From the IMG/VR virus record IMGVR_UViG_3300042465_002409, positions 1 to 27,511 of that record: a DNA stretch of 27,511 bases; one strand, given 5' to 3'. The stretch comes from a virus. The notes beneath the pieces were generated by a model, which saw only the letters and a list, made by a program, of their open reading frames with translations, had not been told where the DNA came from and searched no databases. Of the stretch, positions 14,115 through 26,667 are shown piece after piece. Position 1 is the first letter of the stretch; each line of letters begins with the position of its first letter. Position numbers and translations under genes: made by a program.

Positions 14115-15294
14115 TTACGCCTGCAATATAAAATATTTTCCTGAGTTAGCCACTTTTAATTTATTGAGTGCCACATATCTAAGCGCATCAATAGCGTGGT
14201 TTTGGAAATCTACTGGCTCGTCAAGCATTTTACCATTCTTGTCTTGCTTCCACTTGTATTCTCTAAATTCCTTAATAAGATTCACGCTGTTTTTAGTAAC
14301 GTGTATCTTTTGCCTTCTTAATATGTCAATTGAGTTGCGTATGCTATCAGGCCCCTTTTTTGCTGGATGTATGTTAAACCCAAGCCTATGAACTTCTTCA
14401 ATGCTTTTTGGCTCTGCGCTGTCTGCAATTATTTCTTGGGTTCGGTTTATAGCCATTGCTTTCATTTTTGATGCTATATCTTGATTGGTCAAATTTCTTT
14501 CATAAATTAATTCTTCAACATACAAATCATCTCCCTTTTTCCATACAGCAATTAAAGCAGTTGGATCATTGGTAAATCCCCAGTCTAATCCAAGCGAAAC
14601 AAACTTGCAATTGATTCTATCAATGTCATCAACTTGTTCCCAATTCTCAAAAACAGCCCCTTGAAGCGTTCCAATTTGACCAAGCCCATACACCTTCCAC
14701 CAATTAGCCCAATATTCAGATGTCTTTGCTTTTTCCCGTGCTTGCTCTATGTCTTTTTTAATTGTGTCAGGAAGCGCCTCGTTATCTAAATAATTTAAAA
14801 CAATTAATTCGGAATCAGGCTCTTTTAAAACTTCGGTATGCGCCCAAAATTCAGCAGTTGGATTAAAGTCCAACCAAATATCTTCACTTGTTCTTATTGC
14901 TAATTGATGATATGATTCAAAAGTTATGTTGTTGCACTCATTGATATAAAGAACCTGCCTTCTTGCGCCTCGTAATTTTTCTTCTTGGTCTGCAGAAAAA
15001 AACTCAATATAACTTCCATTGCTAAATCTATAAGTCAACAATGTACTATTCCAGCCTTCATTTCTCCATCGATTTGTGGCTACCATTATTTTCTTAAAAT
15101 CCTTAATCGCACCCCGTCGAAGATGAGGTATAGATTCCGAAACAACGCTAATTTCTTTTAGCGATGCACGTGCTGCCAAATCTATTAAAATAGGCAATAT
15201 TCCAAACGTCTTTCCAATTCACCCCCTCCGTTGCCAAAGGGGGTTAACGCCCTGCAGATGTTCCACCCTGGACTACTTTCTTTCGGGCGGTCAT
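14115..15294 (-). CDS. terL: Terminase large subunit, interrupted in the Walker A motif by a 37-nt gap
   Basis: The packaging motor ATPase and nuclease. The gene starts at ATG 15294 and encodes MTARKKVVQGGTSAG, then CGT and a UAA stop. The frame resumes at AAG 15212 as KTFGILPILIDLAARA, so the two halves join into a perfect P-loop GGTSAGKT and a 380-residue protein. Other motifs are intact: Walker B VLYINEC (about 102-108), a coupling-type LDFNPT (about 129-134), and the RuvC-like nuclease aspartates in LGLDWGF (D225), IADSAEP (D279) and NHAIDALRY (D357). No complete reading frame covers Walker A, so the gene needs ribosomal bypassing, RNA processing or reinitiation to work. It is essential to a tailed phage, and its other motifs are undamaged, which argues against simple decay. 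It lies 14 nt downstream of the HNH gene. Confidence 0.85.
15213..15249 (-). other. Putative 37-nt translational bypass gap in terL (hairpin between Gly codons)
   Basis: Takeoff codon GGG (15252-15250) is followed by CGT, the stop UAA, a hairpin and then GGA (15215-15213), after which reading continues at AAG. The gap is 37 nt including GGA, not a multiple of three. The hairpin ACCCCCTT/GAGGGGGT (8 bp, last pair G-U, loop about 8 nt) fills most of it and ends a few bases before the landing codon. Takeoff and landing both encode Gly, as in T4 gene 60, where GGA hops to GGA across 50 nt. Bypassing is an inference. A palindromic element insertion that inactivated terL, or removal at the RNA level, is the alternative. 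Confidence 0.6.
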
Positions 15295-15300
15295 CTGCAG
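15252..15300 (-). promoter_or_regulatory. Hairpin sequestering the terL start codon and ending at the takeoff codon
   Basis: CTGCAGATG (15300-15292, containing the ATG) pairs perfectly with CATCTGCAG (15260-15252), whose last G is the first base of the takeoff GGG. An inner helix CCGCCC/GGGTGG (15290-15285 with 15268-15263, one G-U) extends it. The start codon is therefore buried in at least 15 bp, and ribosomes leaving the HNH gene 14 nt upstream could open it. It also forms a 5' stem directly abutting the gap hairpin. Confidence 0.65.
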
Positions 15301-15308
15301 TAGCTTGT

Positions 15309-15878
15309 TTATTGCGCTTGTGCGTATAAATGTTTGTACTCCCATTTGTATCCGTATGCTGTTTTGTATCGTTTTTCTTTTTTGCAACACTTAATAATAC
15401 CAACGGTATTATAGCCTTGTTCACGCAATATTTGCTTTATACTTCCCCATTCTTTTATAATCTTTCCATTTATATCTAACTGCAACACAGCAAGGCTTTG
15501 TGGATTGTCTTTTCCCTTTGCCTTGATATTTAAACCGGTATCAAAAGAATGTTTAATATTTTCGCTTGGTGTAGCCCACTCTAAATTAGAAACGCAATTG
15601 TTTATCTTGTTGCCATCTTTGTGATTAATTTGGCTTTTCAATTCTTTATTTGTAATAAAGGCAAATCCCACAAGCCTATGAACCATATGGTATTTTCTCT
15701 TTCCGTTTTTAAACAGCTTGACTTGATAATACCCAGCCCCCTTTAATCTTAGCGTGATTGGTTTTGCAACACAATGCTGGGGGTTTGTTGAATTTCCATT
15801 ACCCTTGCTTCTTACGTTTCCGATATTAGAAACCTCGTAAAGCCCCTCGTATCCAATTATATCTTTCCATTTTTCCAT
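15309..15878 (-). CDS. HNH homing endonuclease (NUMOD4-HNH-NUMOD1)
   Basis: A 189-residue intron/phage-type homing endonuclease. Residues 1-45 are a NUMOD4 DNA-binding module (EKWKDIIGYEGLYEVSNIGN). Residues about 62-110 are an HNH_3 nuclease (VHRLVGFAF, then QINHKDGNKINNCVSNLEWA with catalytic-type H86 and N98). Residues about 129-185 are a NUMOD1 module (LQLDINGKIIKEWGSIKQIL and a TAYGYKWEYK end). It is intact and sits between terS and terL. The terL Walker A codons lie about 60 nt beyond its stop and contain the 37-nt gap, so the gap may mark the cleavage site and protect the carrier copy. A -7 promoter box lies four bases before its ATG. I see no group I ribozyme around it. Confidence 0.93.
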   Translation of the reverse strand: MEKWKDIIGYEGLYEVSNIGNVRSKGNGNSTNPQHCVAKPITLRLKGAGYYQVKLFKNGKRKYHMVHRLVGFAFITNKELKSQINHKDGNKINNCVSNLEWATPSENIKHSFDTGLNIKAKGKDNPQSLAVLQLDINGKIIKEWGSIKQILREQGYNTVGIIKCCKKEKRYKTAYGYKWEYKHLYAQAQ

Positions 15879-19960: not shown

Positions 19961-20708
19961 ATAAAAAGTCGTGTGTTAAATTGTTTTTTCGAAAGTACTG
20001 GCGAAGCAAGTCATCCCTGCAAATCTTTATCTGCTCAAATCTAAGTTCCGGTATGTCTTTTGGTCGCTGCTCAATAGCGTTTAAGAGGGACTGGATAGTC
20101 CTTGCCTCGTATCGTTCAGCGTTATCCCTTTTCGCTTTTATAGCTGCAATGGCTCTATCTTTTGACTTCTCAAACATCTCGGCTTTCTCGTCAATAGATA
20201 CATTAATCTGCCCTATCTTTTCCAGCCACAAGTACCCAGCACTGCCACCATCCAAAAAACTTTGTCCGCTTTTGAACTTGTGATACATTGTCACGAGATG
20301 CTCGATGGCTGTGTTTAGCTTTTCTTCTTCGCTCATTTCGTACGGCTGAAATGATTGGTTGTTGCGGTGCGCTGCCAATTCCATCTTGACTTTATCCAAG
20401 TAGGCATACACCCACTTTAAATAAGTAGCTGGTGCGTTAGCTGAATATACCTCTCCTGACCTCATACCTTCGTTTACAGCTATCTTAAACTGGTCAAGGG
20501 TACATCGTGTCTGCTTCAAGTCAGTTTCGATCATACGCACGATAAGATTGAGGGTGTGCTGGTCGTTCGTTACTTGCTGCCCAGCGTAAGCGCAAACCAT
20601 CTTGTACTGGTTAAGGATTTCAGGTAGCAAGTCTTGCTGTGGCATTTGAGCGCATTGCTTACCTTGGTAGGCTTGAACGGCTTGGCTGTTATTCGTTGTC
20701 GTTATCAT
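19929..20708 (-). CDS. Hypothetical replication-region protein, 259 aa
   Basis: A 259-residue protein beginning MITTTNNSQAVQAYQGKQCA. It is mainly helical, with a central stretch LDGGSAGYLWLEKIGQINVS and a basic region (AIAAIKAKRDNAERYEARTI) in the C-terminal half. I see no Walker motifs, so it is not a helicase. It lies between the replication-organizer-like gene (20-nt overlap) and ninG. By position it may be a helicase loader or primosome accessory protein of the kind encoded beside replication organizers, but this is inference; I do not recognise the family. Confidence 0.6.
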   Translation of the reverse strand: MITTTNNSQAVQAYQGKQCAQMPQQDLLPEILNQYKMVCAYAGQQVTNDQHTLNLIVRMIETDLKQTRCTLDQFKIAVNEGMRSGEVYSANAPATYLKWVYAYLDKVKMELAAHRNNQSFQPYEMSEEEKLNTAIEHLVTMYHKFKSGQSFLDGGSAGYLWLEKIGQINVSIDEKAEMFEKSKDRAIAAIKAKRDNAERYEARTIQSLLNAIEQRPKDIPELRFEQIKICRDDLLRQYFRKNNLTHDFLYEIFQEHQAK

Positions 20709-21420
20709 AAATAATCATTGAGTGAAGGTCTGCTTTTACTGCTTTTTCAAAGTTGCTTATTTTTGTGTTTAAGGTAGGAATAATAATTTCATCCTCCCAG
20801 CATTTACCATTCAGCCAAGTTAATGGATTTTTCCTAAACTGCACATCGGGAGTAGAGTGAACGTATTCATCTACCTTGTCAAGCGCAGCGTTGATTTCGT
20901 TATCCGAAAGCTTTAGCCATTTGTCCAAGCACTTCTTGCTGTCTTGCTTCTTATTGTACTTATCCCAAAAAACATCAAACCACACCTTTTTATTATCTTC
21001 TATTCTAACTCTATTTACATTTTCATTTTCATTTTCAGTAGGGTTATTTTTGGGTTTACTTTGGGTTATTAGTTGGGTTATAGTTTGGGTTTCTTTTGGG
21101 TTTTCATCCTTCTTAGGTCTTCCCCCTTTCATTCCGTTATTGCGTTGTTTATCAGCGTATTGGCTGCGCTTCTCTGCTTCTGCCTCTAAACGCTCATTGT
21201 AAATCAAACCATTTTCGTCTAAAACAAATTTTGACTTGACAATATCCGAAACCATATCCCAACCATAACCCAAAAGAAACCCAAGCCTTTTCGGGTCAAG
21301 GTGTCCGTTTTGATGCTGGGCAGCTAACAAGGTAATATATTCACCTCGTTCGTTCATGCTCATAAATTGGCAGCCAGTTAGCCAATCGCTGCTGTAAAAT
21401 AAAAATGCTGGGTCTTTCAT
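20689..21420 (-). CDS. Replication initiation/organizer-like protein (DUF1376-type N-terminus), 243 aa
   Basis: A 243-residue protein starting MKDPAFLFYSSDWLTGCQFM (ATG 21420; a longer reading to 21477 would start inside the leader hairpins). Residues about 1-75 (FMSMNERGEYITLLAAQHQN-GHL, then LGYGWDMVSDIVKSK) resemble the N-terminal winged-helix domain of DUF1376 and replisome-organizer proteins. A low-complexity linker (TITQLITQSKPKNNPTENEN) separates a C-terminal domain with FWDKYNKKQDSKKCLDKW and an FRKNPLTWLNGKCWEDEI end, a common closing segment in phage replication proteins. It probably opens the phage origin or recruits helicase. Expression appears controlled by the terminator-like leader directly before its start. 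Confidence 0.75.
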   Translation of the reverse strand: MKDPAFLFYSSDWLTGCQFMSMNERGEYITLLAAQHQNGHLDPKRLGFLLGYGWDMVSDIVKSKFVLDENGLIYNERLEAEAEKRSQYADKQRNNGMKGGRPKKDENPKETQTITQLITQSKPKNNPTENENENVNRVRIEDNKKVWFDVFWDKYNKKQDSKKCLDKWLKLSDNEINAALDKVDEYVHSTPDVQFRKNPLTWLNGKCWEDEIIIPTLNTKISNFEKAVKADLHSMIIYDNDNE

Positions 21421-21428
21421 AATTAATG

Positions 21429-21463
21429 AAAAAACCCCCAACGAGTCGCAGTCGAAGGGGGTT
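21429..21463 (-). terminator. Terminator/attenuator immediately before the replication gene
   Basis: The stem AACCCCC/GGGGGTT (7 bp, loop 17 nt) is followed by four more T residues, ending eight bases before the ATG at 21420. A terminator placed in a leader this close to a start suggests conditional termination. Its 17-nt loop contains a 10-nt stretch complementary to the loop of the hairpin at 21485-21514. Confidence 0.7.
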
Positions 21464-21484
21464 AAAGTGATTAACACTTAGGTC

Positions 21485-21514
21485 AATCGAATAGACTGCG
21501 ACTTCTATTCGATT
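21485..21514 (-). promoter_or_regulatory. 10-bp hairpin in the replication-gene leader
   Basis: A perfect inverted repeat AATCGAATAG/CTATTCGATT with a 10-nt loop. Bases 21494-21503 are fully complementary to 21444-21453 in the terminator loop, so a kissing or antiterminator pairing can form. A small AAGTG/CACTT hairpin (21465-21479) lies between them. Together they fill the 116-nt gap upstream of the replication gene. Confidence 0.7.
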
Positions 21515-21536
21515 AACTCCTACAAAAGTACAAAAA

Positions 21537-21827
21537 CTATTGGACTTTCCAAAGACTTATCGGCCTATTATGCGCTTGTTTATTTTGCGCTGTCGTATAA
21601 CCGCTGTGCTGGATCATCTTTTCTTTTTGTAGGTCTTTCACAACTGCTCCGTAAACTCTCGGCTCGGCAGGTATTAGAGTCGTTTGACTCTCGTATGCAG
21701 ACCGCAGTATCTCGGTAGTAAAATACCCATGTTCTTTTATCCATCCCTTGGAAAAATACAGGATGTTATCGTAGTAGTTGTCTATCGGTACAACTACTTG
21801 CTCAAGTGATTTAGAAAGGGAGGTCAT
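21537..21827 (-). CDS. Winged-helix-like DNA-binding protein, 96 aa
   Basis: A 96-residue protein beginning MTSLSKSLEQVVVPIDNYYD. The core (KGWIKEHGYFTTEILRSAYE, then AEPRVYGAVVKDLQKEKMIQ, then HSGYTTAQNKQAHNRP and a closing LWKV) matches the pattern of small phage winged-helix proteins found near recombination genes: helix, turn, PAEPR-V-GAV recognition helix and a beta wing. It overlaps the 77-aa gene by 17 nt. It probably binds DNA during replication or recombination, perhaps with the annealase. It sits directly before the three-hairpin leader. No enzymatic motif is present. Confidence 0.65.
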   Translation of the reverse strand: MTSLSKSLEQVVVPIDNYYDNILYFSKGWIKEHGYFTTEILRSAYESQTTLIPAEPRVYGAVVKDLQKEKMIQHSGYTTAQNKQAHNRPISLWKVQ

Positions 21828-22044
21828 TGGTTTCTAAGTTAAAGGGTTCAACTGCTTTTTGTGCGTTAGGTGTTTCCATCCTACCCGAAAAGAACTTGCC
21901 CTTTGCGCCCTCCTTTACCCATAAAGAGATTCGGTAGGTCGTTCCATCAGGTGCGATACACGTGCCGGTATACTGCGGTGCTTTTGGGTTTTCGGTGTTG
22001 TTTTTGAAGATGCTTACATCTCCAGCTTTAGATTCGTATGCCAT
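21811..22044 (-). CDS. Small protein with SSB-like acidic tip, 77 aa
   Basis: A 77-residue protein. The body (AGDVSIFKNNTENPKAPQYT, then GTCIAPDGTTYRISLWVKEG, and AKGKFFSGRM) looks like a small beta-barrel/OB-like or DUF736-like domain. The C-terminus ETNDLPF resembles the acidic tip (D-D-D-I-P-F) of bacterial SSB, which docks replication and repair proteins. It lies between a 147-aa unknown following the ERF annealase and a winged-helix gene. A single-stranded DNA-binding or partner-recruiting role is plausible. The tip is short and could be chance, so this is inference. Confidence 0.6.
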   Translation of the reverse strand: MAYESKAGDVSIFKNNTENPKAPQYTGTCIAPDGTTYRISLWVKEGAKGKFFSGRMETPNAQKAVEPFNLETNDLPF

Positions 22045-22052
22045 TTTGTTGT

Positions 22053-22496
22053 TTATTTAAATTGAATTGAAATTGAACTCTTAGCGTATTTCGGTTGAAC
22101 CTTTGGCACTACTTCGCCAGTTGTCGTGTCGGTTATCTCTGCGTCTTTAGACTTAAATGCCATCTTAAGCAGTTCCTCTCTCTGTTTGACTTGCTCTTTT
22201 AGATGCAGCCAAATAAGGTCTTGTTCGTAATCAGGAGTCACAGCACCATCTTTGTAAGTTGATTGCGCACCAAAGATTTCAACTACCTTAGTTCCATGTT
22301 CATTATGCGCATCTTGCGCTAAGTCATCAGTAGTTGTAATTACATCCGTTAAGGCTAAAATAATAGCTTTTGCTTTTATACGGGCTTCAAGGGCATTTAA
22401 ATAGCCATCCTCAATTAAGTCTATCATCTTCTTTGACCATGTCCTTAATGATTCTTTGCTAATCTCGCTTTCGGTTAGTTCGATTAGGTCAAGCAT
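22053..22496 (-). CDS. Hypothetical protein beside the ERF annealase, 147 aa
   Basis: A 147-residue, mostly helical protein (AIILALTDVITTTDDLAQDA; DYEQDLIWLHLKEQVKQREE) with a basic C-terminal segment (VVPKVQPKYAKSSISIQFK). Acidic and basic patches suit a partner of a recombinase, but I do not recognise the family. It overlaps the ERF gene by 8 nt and precedes the SSB-tip protein by 8 nt, so it is in the same recombination operon. A nuclease function is not supported: no catalytic motif is apparent. Confidence 0.6.
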   Translation of the reverse strand: MLDLIELTESEISKESLRTWSKKMIDLIEDGYLNALEARIKAKAIILALTDVITTTDDLAQDAHNEHGTKVVEIFGAQSTYKDGAVTPDYEQDLIWLHLKEQVKQREELLKMAFKSKDAEITDTTTGEVVPKVQPKYAKSSISIQFK

Positions 22497-23022
22497 TTTC
22501 CTTGATGTTTATTATTTCCAACTCTAAATCTGCCATCATATCAGGAAGTATAATGTACTTCTTTAATAGATCTTCCCACTTGCGTTGACCGCTTGCAATT
22601 GCTGGTGCTATCTTTGGGTACATCGGGTCGCTCTTTGTGAGGGTAGGTAGCTTCTGCGGTGCTTTGCTTGCTGCGTTACCATCGTCATCGTCTGCTTGCA
22701 TTGCCAATAATGATTGGAGGGTGTATCTACGATAGTAAGTCACCTCGCTGCCCTGCTTCTGCGGATCAACAATGTTAGATAGCTTCATCGAACTTTCTAT
22801 TTTCTCCCGTGATTCAGCGTGCCAAATTTGTGTAACTACGCTGCCATCGATAATCGGCTGGAGAACGAATAAGCCGTGAGCGTGTAAGATTGGTTCTACC
22901 ACCTCTAAAAGTCCGTTGATGTCAAAATACTTGGACTTAAAGAAAGGATTGCTGGAGTTCTTAGGCACTTTGCCTAACTCTTGCTTTGCGCTCAATAGTG
23001 CGGTGTGGATTGTTTTGCTCAT
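22489..23022 (-). CDS. erf: ERF-family single-strand annealing protein
   Basis: A 177-residue recombination mediator of the ERF superfamily. Such proteins anneal complementary single strands during phage recombination and circularisation. The signature region is residues about 15-120: ELGKVPKNSSNPFFKSKYFD, then INGLLEVVEPILHAHGLFVL, and QKQGSEVTYYRRYTLQSLLA followed by MQADDDDGN, with the Tyr/Arg-rich YYRRY and acidic run typical of the family. The C-terminal 55 residues are variable. It starts the recombination/replication set, with ninG downstream. The leader contains a TATATTTA stretch, a weak -7-like box at most. Confidence 0.92.
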   Translation of the reverse strand: MSKTIHTALLSAKQELGKVPKNSSNPFFKSKYFDINGLLEVVEPILHAHGLFVLQPIIDGSVVTQIWHAESREKIESSMKLSNIVDPQKQGSEVTYYRRYTLQSLLAMQADDDDGNAASKAPQKLPTLTKSDPMYPKIAPAIASGQRKWEDLLKKYIILPDMMADLELEIINIKENA

Positions 23023-24482: not shown

Positions 24483-24841
24483 CTTCTTTTTTTCAAAGAG
24501 CAATCATAATGACACCAGGTAGCGTAAGCCTTTAGTCCGCCTTGCTCCATCTTGCCTTCGCTTATCAGTCTTTCGATGATAGCAGCGACTGCGCTCGGTG
24601 CGATGCCTTGCGCTTTAAAGTCAGCAGCATCACCAACTAAATGTCGGCTAAAGGTAGCACCGCCTATCTTCTTATTATGCTCCGCAGACCTATGCCCGCT
24701 GGTGATAGTCATTGGCACTTTGAGTTCATCCCTCAAGACTTGCAGGTTCTTTGCCAGCCGTTCTATATTTGTCCGAACGCTCAAAGGCATTGGCGCGCCT
24801 GACTTGCAGGCAAATTCTTCTAACTTAAAGTTTTTAGTCAT
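24476..24841 (-). CDS. M15 D-Ala-D-Ala-type carboxypeptidase/endopeptidase (endolysin)
   Basis: A 121-residue M15 peptidase. The zinc and active-site motif is SRHLVGDAADF at residues 65-75, with H67-x-x-G-x-A-x-D74, and the third ligand is H111 in ATWCHYD near the C-terminus. SGHRSAEHNKKIGGA (48-62) is the family's upstream signature. There is no signal peptide, so it likely leaves the cell through a holin and cuts peptidoglycan cross-links at lysis. The start overlaps the phosphoesterase stop by one base (TAATG). Next come a spanin-like gene and a terminator, completing a lysis cassette. Confidence 0.93.
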   Translation of the reverse strand: MTKNFKLEEFACKSGAPMPLSVRTNIERLAKNLQVLRDELKVPMTITSGHRSAEHNKKIGGATFSRHLVGDAADFKAQGIAPSAVAAIIERLISEGKMEQGGLKAYATWCHYDCSLKKRRW

Positions 24842-26667
24842 TAGTCAGTTTTGGTAAAAGATATTTCCGCACTCAATTTCCGATAGCCTTGCTCTTGCCT
24901 TCTATTGCTTGACAAGGTCATCCAATATCCACCCAAAGGTTTTACGGGTCTGCCACGCTCAATGTGAAATCCGCCAAAGCCATCCTCATACTCCTCTTTG
25001 TAGGCTGCGGTTCTTAGCTGGTGGACTTCTTTGTGATTAATTTCAAATTTAGCCGAATCGTAAGAGTCAACCATATTAACGTGATGGTATGATTCGTGAA
25101 CGTGTCCCATCCATATAATGTCGTAGCCGTCTAATTGCGCTACCATCCTTTGGTCTTGGATTACGCCTTTAGTAACAGCACCCCCACCTCCAAAACCATG
25201 GTAGTATTTCATTACTACTTTTGTTCCTCCGTTTGCTGCGTTGGTAATCTTAAAATCTAAAACACCACCATAGCCACCGACTTGCACGTTTGTTCCGCAG
25301 GTCATATTTAAGAGGTCAACGAAGCGTTGTAAAGGATCGGTTTCAAGGTTCTTGATGATGGCGGTGTTTCCTGAAAATGCAACCTTGCCATCTATTTGAG
25401 TAACAAAACAGCCTGAAGGCATATTTAAACAATGAACCAAACCATCGTAGTCCTGCTCGCTTACGTTTATCTTTTGCGCTTTGTGCAACGCTGGCATAAA
25501 TGAAGCAAGGTATTGAGGCTTGCCGTTGGCGAATCCGCTTCTTGTTTTGTTGACTTTAACCTTAAACAACCAGCCATTCAAGATGCAAGCACGCTGCACG
25601 ATGTCAATGTTAACGCTGTCAGTTGATGACCACACAGTTAAATTGCCATCCATTGAGCCATCCGTTTTTTGGATTGTTTGTATTAAGGCATCAAATCCCT
25701 CGCCAGTTAAAGAGGCAAACGCTTCAGGTAGCTGCTTGATTCCGTTGAGGTCTTGGTTAATCTTTCTCGCCCAATCACCATAAATGCGGATATAATAAGG
25801 CTGGAGTTTATTTACGCCAGTCATTTTGCATTCAGCAAAAGTATAGTCAACGCCATAGGCATCTAAGATAGAGCGTATGTATGCAATCTTTTCAGGCTTG
25901 CTTACCTTAAATTGCACTCTTATCTTTTTGCTTGCTGGCTCGTATTTAGCGTGATCAACAATTGTGGCATCCATTACCACAGCAGTTAGTATCTCTACCC
26001 ACTTTGCATCTACTGCTGAATCGGATTTTACTTTTCTGCCGTGTGGCAAAGCCATTTCCGTTACCCTTTCGTGTGCTGCCCAGGTAGCAAAATCTTCAGC
26101 GTTTATCTTGGTCATGTCGTTTAACATAACTGCGTGCTTAGAAGATACCACTTGCTTTGTGTAGCCGCCTTCAATAGTGTACAGCTTATCTGCTGGCTTT
26201 GATACTACCGCATTCGGTTTCTCGAAATAGATATTCTCGTTGTCAAAGGTAGCCACCATATCTTCGGTCGTTACCTCGGTAATGTTTACCCAGCCTTTGT
26301 CGGTTAAAACTTTCGTGTCAGGATGGTAGCATTCGTGGTTACCATATCCAATCAATAAAATCATATCCGCATAAGGTGTCCACCACTTCACCGCATCTTC
26401 GACAACTGCATCGATATAATTGGCTTTGTTGTGTTCGGGCAGTATGTCTTTCTTACTCCGTCTTGGGTCGTACTTTCCCTGCATCATACAAAAGAAATCC
26501 CCGTTTATGACAATCTTTGCGCCTCGTTCCCTTGCTTGCTTTAGATGCCGTTTAAGAAGGTCACGCTCGCACTTAGGATTGTCCCAATGCAAATCACTAA
26601 GCAATAAAAAAAGCTGCGATTTATCAACCGCAACTTTGTGAATGTTTCTCGAAATACGTTCAATCAT
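24841..26667 (-). CDS. Metallophosphoesterase containing an in-frame intein, 608 aa
   Basis: A calcineurin-like metallophosphoesterase interrupted by an intein. The host protein carries SDLHWDN (motif I, DxH, about 24-30), NGDFFC (motif II, 55-60), GYGNHE (motif III, 107-112), KYYHGFGG (candidate motif IV, H490) and WMGHVHESYH (motif V GHxH, about 519-528). After E112 a 322-residue intein runs from C113 to N434, and T435 is the +1 nucleophile. Excision would give a 286-residue enzyme. Such phosphoesterases act on nucleic acids or small phosphates. The gene overlaps the 83-aa gene by 8 nt and M15 by one base. The intein interrupts a catalytic motif, so splicing is needed for activity. Confidence 0.9.
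   Translation of the reverse strand: MIERISRNIHKVAVDKSQLFLLLSDLHWDNPKCERDLLKRHLKQARERGAKIVINGDFFCMMQGKYDPRRSKKDILPEHNKANYIDAVVEDAVKWWTPYADMILLIGYGNHECYHPDTKVLTDKGWVNITEVTTEDMVATFDNENIYFEKPNAVVSKPADKLYTIEGGYTKQVVSSKHAVMLNDMTKINAEDFATWAAHERVTEMALPHGRKVKSDSAVDAKWVEILTAVVMDATIVDHAKYEPASKKIRVQFKVSKPEKIAYIRSILDAYGVDYTFAECKMTGVNKLQPYYIRIYGDWARKINQDLNGIKQLPEAFASLTGEGFDALIQTIQKTDGSMDGNLTVWSSTDSVNIDIVQRACILNGWLFKVKVNKTRSGFANGKPQYLASFMPALHKAQKINVSEQDYDGLVHCLNMPSGCFVTQIDGKVAFSGNTAIIKNLETDPLQRFVDLLNMTCGTNVQVGGYGGVLDFKITNAANGGTKVVMKYYHGFGGGGAVTKGVIQDQRMVAQLDGYDIIWMGHVHESYHHVNMVDSYDSAKFEINHKEVHQLRTAAYKEEYEDGFGGFHIERGRPVKPLGGYWMTLSSNRRQEQGYRKLSAEISFTKTD
25366..26331 (-). mobile_element. Intein with LAGLIDADG-type homing endonuclease remnants, 322 aa
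   Basis: The splice block A starts CYHPDTKVLTDKGWVNI. A block B-like VVSSKHAVML has S-x-x-H in place of T-x-x-H (H178). Blocks F and G are DGLVHCLNMPSGCFVTQIDG and KVAFSGN, ending in Gly-Asn without the usual penultimate His. The next residue is Thr. Between lie two LAGLIDADG-type helices: ILTAVVMDATI (about 226-236, D233) and ALIQTIQKTDGSMDG (about 327-341, D336). The first has a degenerate Gly-to-Ala position. It lies inside the GNHE motif of the phosphoesterase. Confidence 0.9.

Follow-up and report, generated by a model that had tools for sequence, protein, structure and literature searches.

Upstream of a predicted replication gene in a viral sequence (IMG/VR record IMGVR_UViG_3300042465_002409, positions 1 to 27,511; this 27,511-nt stretch is hereafter the window), the minus strand encodes a leader of three hairpins in which the loop region of the first (S1) is complementary to the loop region of a terminator-like hairpin (C). 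Comparisons of leaders showed that the S1:C complementarity has been maintained by selection, among close relatives of the window (the window group) as well as across a broad family of leaders from phages that carry other letters. We propose that the leader of the replication operon acts as an RNA attenuator, in which pairing of S1 with C would compete with folding of the terminator during transcription, and we give this reading a probability of roughly 0.7. The leader type is described by no Rfam family and by no paper found in the open-access literature.

A three-hairpin leader ahead of the replication gene

The 101 nt upstream of the replication gene folded on the minus strand into three hairpins with a free energy of -37.2 kcal/mol (z = -5.8 relative to dinucleotide shuffles, with 0/200 shuffles equally good). 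The 5'-terminal hairpin H1 (21482..21517), predicted by folding and by covariation, has 14 bp including one U-G pair and an 8-nt loop, AGUCGCAG (21496-21503). The initial annotation had located this hairpin correctly, although it described a perfect stem of 10 bp (21485-21514). S1 (AGUCGCAGUC, 21494..21503) comprises the H1 loop plus two stem bases, and its 7-nt core GUCGCAG occupies 21496-21502. H1 is followed by H2, a small spacer hairpin (21465..21479) identified by folding; the letters of H2 differ in a third leader type, where a hairpin is still predicted at that place. The last hairpin (21429..21463) resembles an intrinsic terminator, with an outer stem (21457-21463 with 21433-21439), an apical 3-bp stem, a 7-nt apical loop and then UUUUUU, ending 8 nt upstream of the ATG (21420). 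The complement of S1, C (GACUGCGACU, 21444..21453), lies within it, and the 7-nt core of C (CUGCGAC, 21445-21451) coincides exactly with the apical loop. Refolding thus recovered the three hairpins where they had been placed before, along with the stem, U-run and spacing of the terminator-like element, and the reported full match of 21494-21503 to 21444-21453 is perfect.

A promoter of the Bacteroidota type lies directly upstream on the same strand, so that transcription is predicted to start near 21520, within a few bases of the beginning of H1. Its -33 element TTTG (21550..21553) lies 19 nt upstream of the -7 element TACTTTTG (21523..21530), which is kept in relatives, and the arrangement TTTG-N19-TACTTTTG (21553 to 21523) fits the -33/-7 promoter consensus described for the principal sigma factor of Bacteroidota, TTTG / TAnnTTTG (PMC7366714). 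In the wider family described below, a TAnnTTTG box ends 4-6 nt upstream of H1 in 54/71 loci. The hosts of phages carrying such leaders are probably Bacteroidota; an ERF scan of the genome contigs gave no clear host.

The downstream gene (20689..21420, minus strand) encodes a predicted replication organizer or primosomal-type protein, based on a match to PHROG 9327 (primosomal protein, E 8e-24) and a weak, below cut-off Pfam match to DUF1376 (E 1e-4). Upstream, an open reading frame of 96 aa (21537..21827, minus strand) overlaps the promoter region with its end. In the wider-family loci inspected, the leader forms the head of a replication operon. Its first gene is often a small ORF; an initiator gene, DUF6291/DUF1376-like or related, comes next, and in many cases a gene that by eye looks helicase-like follows. 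Among the contigs checked, each contained a single such leader.

The loop match had been judged unlikely to arise by chance, and the controls agree. A scanner for the S1/C hairpin arrangement returned the window element as its sole match in 371 kb (window and first relatives, both strands), and a looser version gave 3 matches in 2.0 Mb of simulated sequence. Together with the shuffles, these results rule out a chance origin of the window arrangement.

Loop complementarity is kept while loop letters change

Contigs of the window group were picked by similarity of the replication or upstream protein, or by a conserved H2 region, and never by complementarity. The loop type GUCGCAG/CUGCGAC is found in the window, L002 and L003, GUAAGAG/CUCUUAC in L004 and L018/L026, and AUGCGAG/CUCGCAU in L005, L007, L022, L024 and L030. 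In one alignment every S1 core falls in columns 17-23 and every C core in columns 70-76, and C is the apical hairpin loop in every type. Over the three helices 98.9% of all cells are paired. The S1:C helix is 100% paired with 4/7 pairs altered on both sides; H1 has compensatory double changes at 6/14 pairs and 97.6% of cells paired; and the terminator stem also covaries, so that all three helices contain compensatory changes. The covariation score of 0.66 fell to at most 0.10 when the partners were slid, abolishing the signal. Covariation in related phages had been named beforehand as one check, with loss of loop complementarity on conserved stems as the outcome that would speak against the element; the opposite was seen.

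The window and L026 share an identical linker, H2 and outer terminator stem, and their upstream flanks are 91% identical; they differ in S1, C, the stems around both and the 3' end of the leader. Among relatives the leader can be retained even though the replication protein encoded downstream has a different N-terminal part. Separately, in L005 and L024 the C-terminal part of the replication protein (window region 20689-20992) is common while the N-terminal domain and the leader type are swapped, placing a mosaic junction within the gene.

The wider family was sampled from 345 non-redundant leaders, each running from a TAnnTTTG box to an ORF in the loci gathered by that stage. A downstream hairpin loop matched the 5' region over at least 8 complementary nt in 36/345 leaders and in 7/1,725 shuffles. 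The commonest form reads GGTTC-[8 nt]-ATTATA-GAACC, followed by a 12-16-nt linker and a long terminator hairpin with the complement in its apical loop. Because loci of this form had been chosen by complementarity, pairing was retested with a pattern that fixes only the H1 stem and leaves six loop letters free. With the common stem, 66 of 71 unique loci had a perfect complement 32-37 nt downstream (64 with a T-run after it), and with the stem GTTAC/GTAAC the count was 38/40. Both pulls combined gave a perfect 8-nt complement 32-40 nt downstream in 104/111 unique loci, nearly all then followed by a T-run; the 7 exceptions are unrelated DNA or contig ends. When octamers of other phages were substituted, no perfect match was found in 1,420 and 800 trials (~2,200 in total). 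Each pull contained 18 distinct octamers, some reused among different contigs. These pulls replace alignment A3, which was chosen by complementarity and whose covariation count is not used as proof.

A model lacking the S1:C pairs still recovered new members in which the complement is kept; one weaker match to it, L099, has 6 contiguous pairs only. The new members include the leader of the cultured Tenacibaculum phage JQ (MT002873.2 35960-36057, equivalent to L037 4161-4258), which has 11 Watson-Crick pairs and one G-U. The window subtype and the common form may share descent, or may have the design alone in common.

At the gathering score, Rfam had no match for the window leader or for the 16 further family loci scanned, and no credible match emerged when the thresholds were relaxed. 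BLAST against phages returned no match for the window leader and one weak partial match for that of L022, as expected if the loop letters are free. A search of 396 genomes of one order with covariance model R1 had no match, although it is uninformative as only ~10 candidates were scored in each.

A second class of leaders lacks the T-run (L065, L066, L085, L148, L151, L162 and L168). Here C has two possible partners, the 5' S1 and another copy of S1 at the start codon, and the three segments change letters in concert. This class resembles the same switch acting at the level of translation, in which S1 would again oppose an OFF structure. There is also a subtype with a 6-nt loop, represented by L191 (GGGT-AAGCAG-ACCC / CTGCTT), L203 (GGGT-AGGCAG-ACCC / CTGCCT) and L210 (ACCT-GTGCAG-AGGT / CTGCAC); L191 and L203 have an extra copy just upstream of the ATG.

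Proposed attenuation and its alternatives

According to the proposed mechanism, S1 would pair with C during transcription of the leader, at a point when RNA polymerase has yet to make the 3' arm of the terminator. The pairing would take the form of a kissing complex in the window type and, in the common type, of an open antiterminator helix. This pairing would hinder completion of the terminator and allow the replication genes to be transcribed. If S1 and C miss each other in cis, the terminator would close and a leader RNA of ~90 nt would be released. More tentatively, released leader RNAs, which contain both loops themselves, might bind to C or S1 on newly made transcripts that share their loop type, such that more genome copies and more leader RNA would mean less replication-gene expression, and phages with other letters would not interfere.

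The window and the wider family both have the promoter, leader and intrinsic terminator near the start codon that characterize an attenuator. They also have an earlier competing structure, which in the window is available only as a kissing complex. In common-type transcripts ending just after C, S1:C pairing was the minimum-energy fold in 64/64 leaders, and in most full-length leaders the minimum flipped to H1 plus terminator. This order of events, S1:C early and H1 with terminator late, is that of a terminator/antiterminator attenuator. Even for a window transcript that does not yet include the terminator, the open antiterminator is less stable than H1+H2 by 2.5 kcal/mol, suggesting that the 14-bp H1 is too stable for it and that S1:C is likely to be a kissing complex. 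The fold order of the common type, together with the second class in which S1 would counter an OFF structure, leads us to favour S1:C pairing as the ON state. The joint change of loop letters in an otherwise constant leader suggests that specificity is under selection. Pairing in cis alone would not call for such specificity, and for this reason action of the terminated leader RNA in trans was considered. From these patterns we infer control of termination by S1:C, its direction and its action in trans; the leader is probably an attenuator tuned in trans by its own terminated RNA.

Alternatively, the terminated leader could be an identity or exclusion RNA whose main targets, in trans, are leaders with a matching loop type, in the manner of plasmid incompatibility or P4-type immunity. 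We regard this as possible, at well under even odds. It would account for the many private octamers (18 distinct per pull) and for S1 and C changing together between the window and L026 while the linker, H2 and outer terminator stem stay identical, and it has precedents in IsrK and the P4 CI RNA (PMC4825925). However, S1 and C reside on one molecule, giving cis pairing a large head start, and different contigs reuse octamers. Lysogenic immunity in particular seems unlikely: the tyrosine integrase profile PF00589, the one integrase type searched for, was absent from 40 records including leader carriers, most of them partial contigs and one a complete cultured phage. Recurrence of the octamers elsewhere in the contigs, as trans targets, was not above control level. 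A related and similarly tentative idea is a widespread, programmable self-recognition code, in which the replication-operon leader of each phage would have its own 7-8-nt loop pair and, once released, would count or exclude genomes of its own type through pairing with new leaders; such a code would be the same-strand counterpart of plasmid incompatibility RNAs.

A second possibility, which we consider unlikely, is that S1-C kissing stabilises the terminator hairpin, so that pairing is the OFF state and some factor or ribosome-related event breaks the kissing to turn the genes on. The two hairpins are compatible with the kissing pair in a single drawing, and most of the full-length folds leave the S1 and C cores in loops. 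Set against this, S1:C pairing of the common type is preferred before the terminator exists, as for an antiterminator; in the class without a T-run, S1 and the start-site copy compete for C, making S1 an ON element; and on the geometry we infer, a coaxial rod of ~33 bp would be long for 12-16-nt linkers.

The initial annotation had offered an RNA switch based on kissing loops or an antiterminator and, as the other choice, a DNA origin or cruciform. The retained loop complementarity fits the former. A DNA element, in the form of inverted repeats that a replication protein binds or of a cruciform or single-strand origin, would suit a site adjoining the replication gene but is very improbable: the promoter, U-run and ORF spacing are all strand-specific, H1 contains G-U pairs, every window-group type has C as a hairpin's apical loop, and the letters are too variable for a single DNA-binding protein. 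Chance, or an ordinary terminator with coincidental loops, has nothing beyond the short match length in its favour and is refuted by the shuffle, cross-octamer and slide controls and by the unbiased pulls.

Relation to known regulatory RNAs

One of the closest parallels to the proposed attenuator is the repC leader of plasmid pT181, likewise a hairpin leader of a replication gene with kissing loops and a choice between terminator and antiterminator (PMC3753616). In pT181-type attenuators specificity resides in loop and upper-stem letters (PMC3753616). In pT181 the partner is an antisense RNA transcribed from the other strand, whereas the phage leader has both partner loops on itself. The opposite-strand countertranscript promoter that marks pT181/pIP501 antisense attenuators was not found for the TAnnTTTG type: there is no such box on the plus strand from 21052 to 22609, this being the only promoter type searched.

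The P4 CI RNA (seqA/seqB/seqC) also belongs to an untranslated leader of phage replication genes with complementary segments and premature termination (PMC4825925). P4, however, is temperate and its CI RNA is processed from the leader, whereas here we find an intrinsic terminator, a loop-loop design and no tyrosine integrase in the 40 records. For IsrK of Gifsy-1, transcription from one promoter either terminates to give a small RNA or reads through to give an mRNA, and the two products interact; it differs in that its target is the translation of an antiterminator locus, in a prophage of Salmonella, with no octamer code described there (PMC4825925). Common to the P4 CI RNA, IsrK and the present leader are a terminated leader RNA and pairing partners located on one transcript.

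Membership of the Rfam c4 family, which would mark a P4/c4-type immunity RNA, was not supported, as the c4 model had no match at the gathering score. The c4 antisense RNA is a phage RNA with stem-loops complementary to its own transcript. Listed as Rfam RF01695 (PMC2864571), it differs from the present leaders in layout and host phylum, and Rfam returned no match to the window leader family. Lacking both an antisense promoter of the expected type and an Rfam match, the leader is not filed under pT181, P4, IsrK or c4. In the open-access literature we found no description of kissing or phage leaders of this kind in Bacteroidetes.

Control of replication by RNA attenuators is best known in plasmids, with an antisense RNA as the partner. 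In the phages described here both partners are on one leader, and the pairing letters are swapped freely within a fixed layout across a large set of phages. If the leader works as proposed, phage replication would be tuned by copy number without a protein. The natural set of loop pairs would be a ready library for RNA orthogonality tests, and Tenacibaculum phage JQ, as a cultured carrier, is a practical test system.

Two further features of the window lie on the minus strand. A NUMOD4/HNH endonuclease gene (14115-15878) directly precedes the large-terminase ORF (Terminase_3), whose profile match begins at position 68 of 201, suggesting an insertion, perhaps an intron; Rfam gave no intron match at this site. 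At 24841-26667, a calcineurin-like phosphoesterase gene has, by eye, an apparent intein-like interruption after GNHE (CYHPDTKVLTDKGWV ... FSGN).
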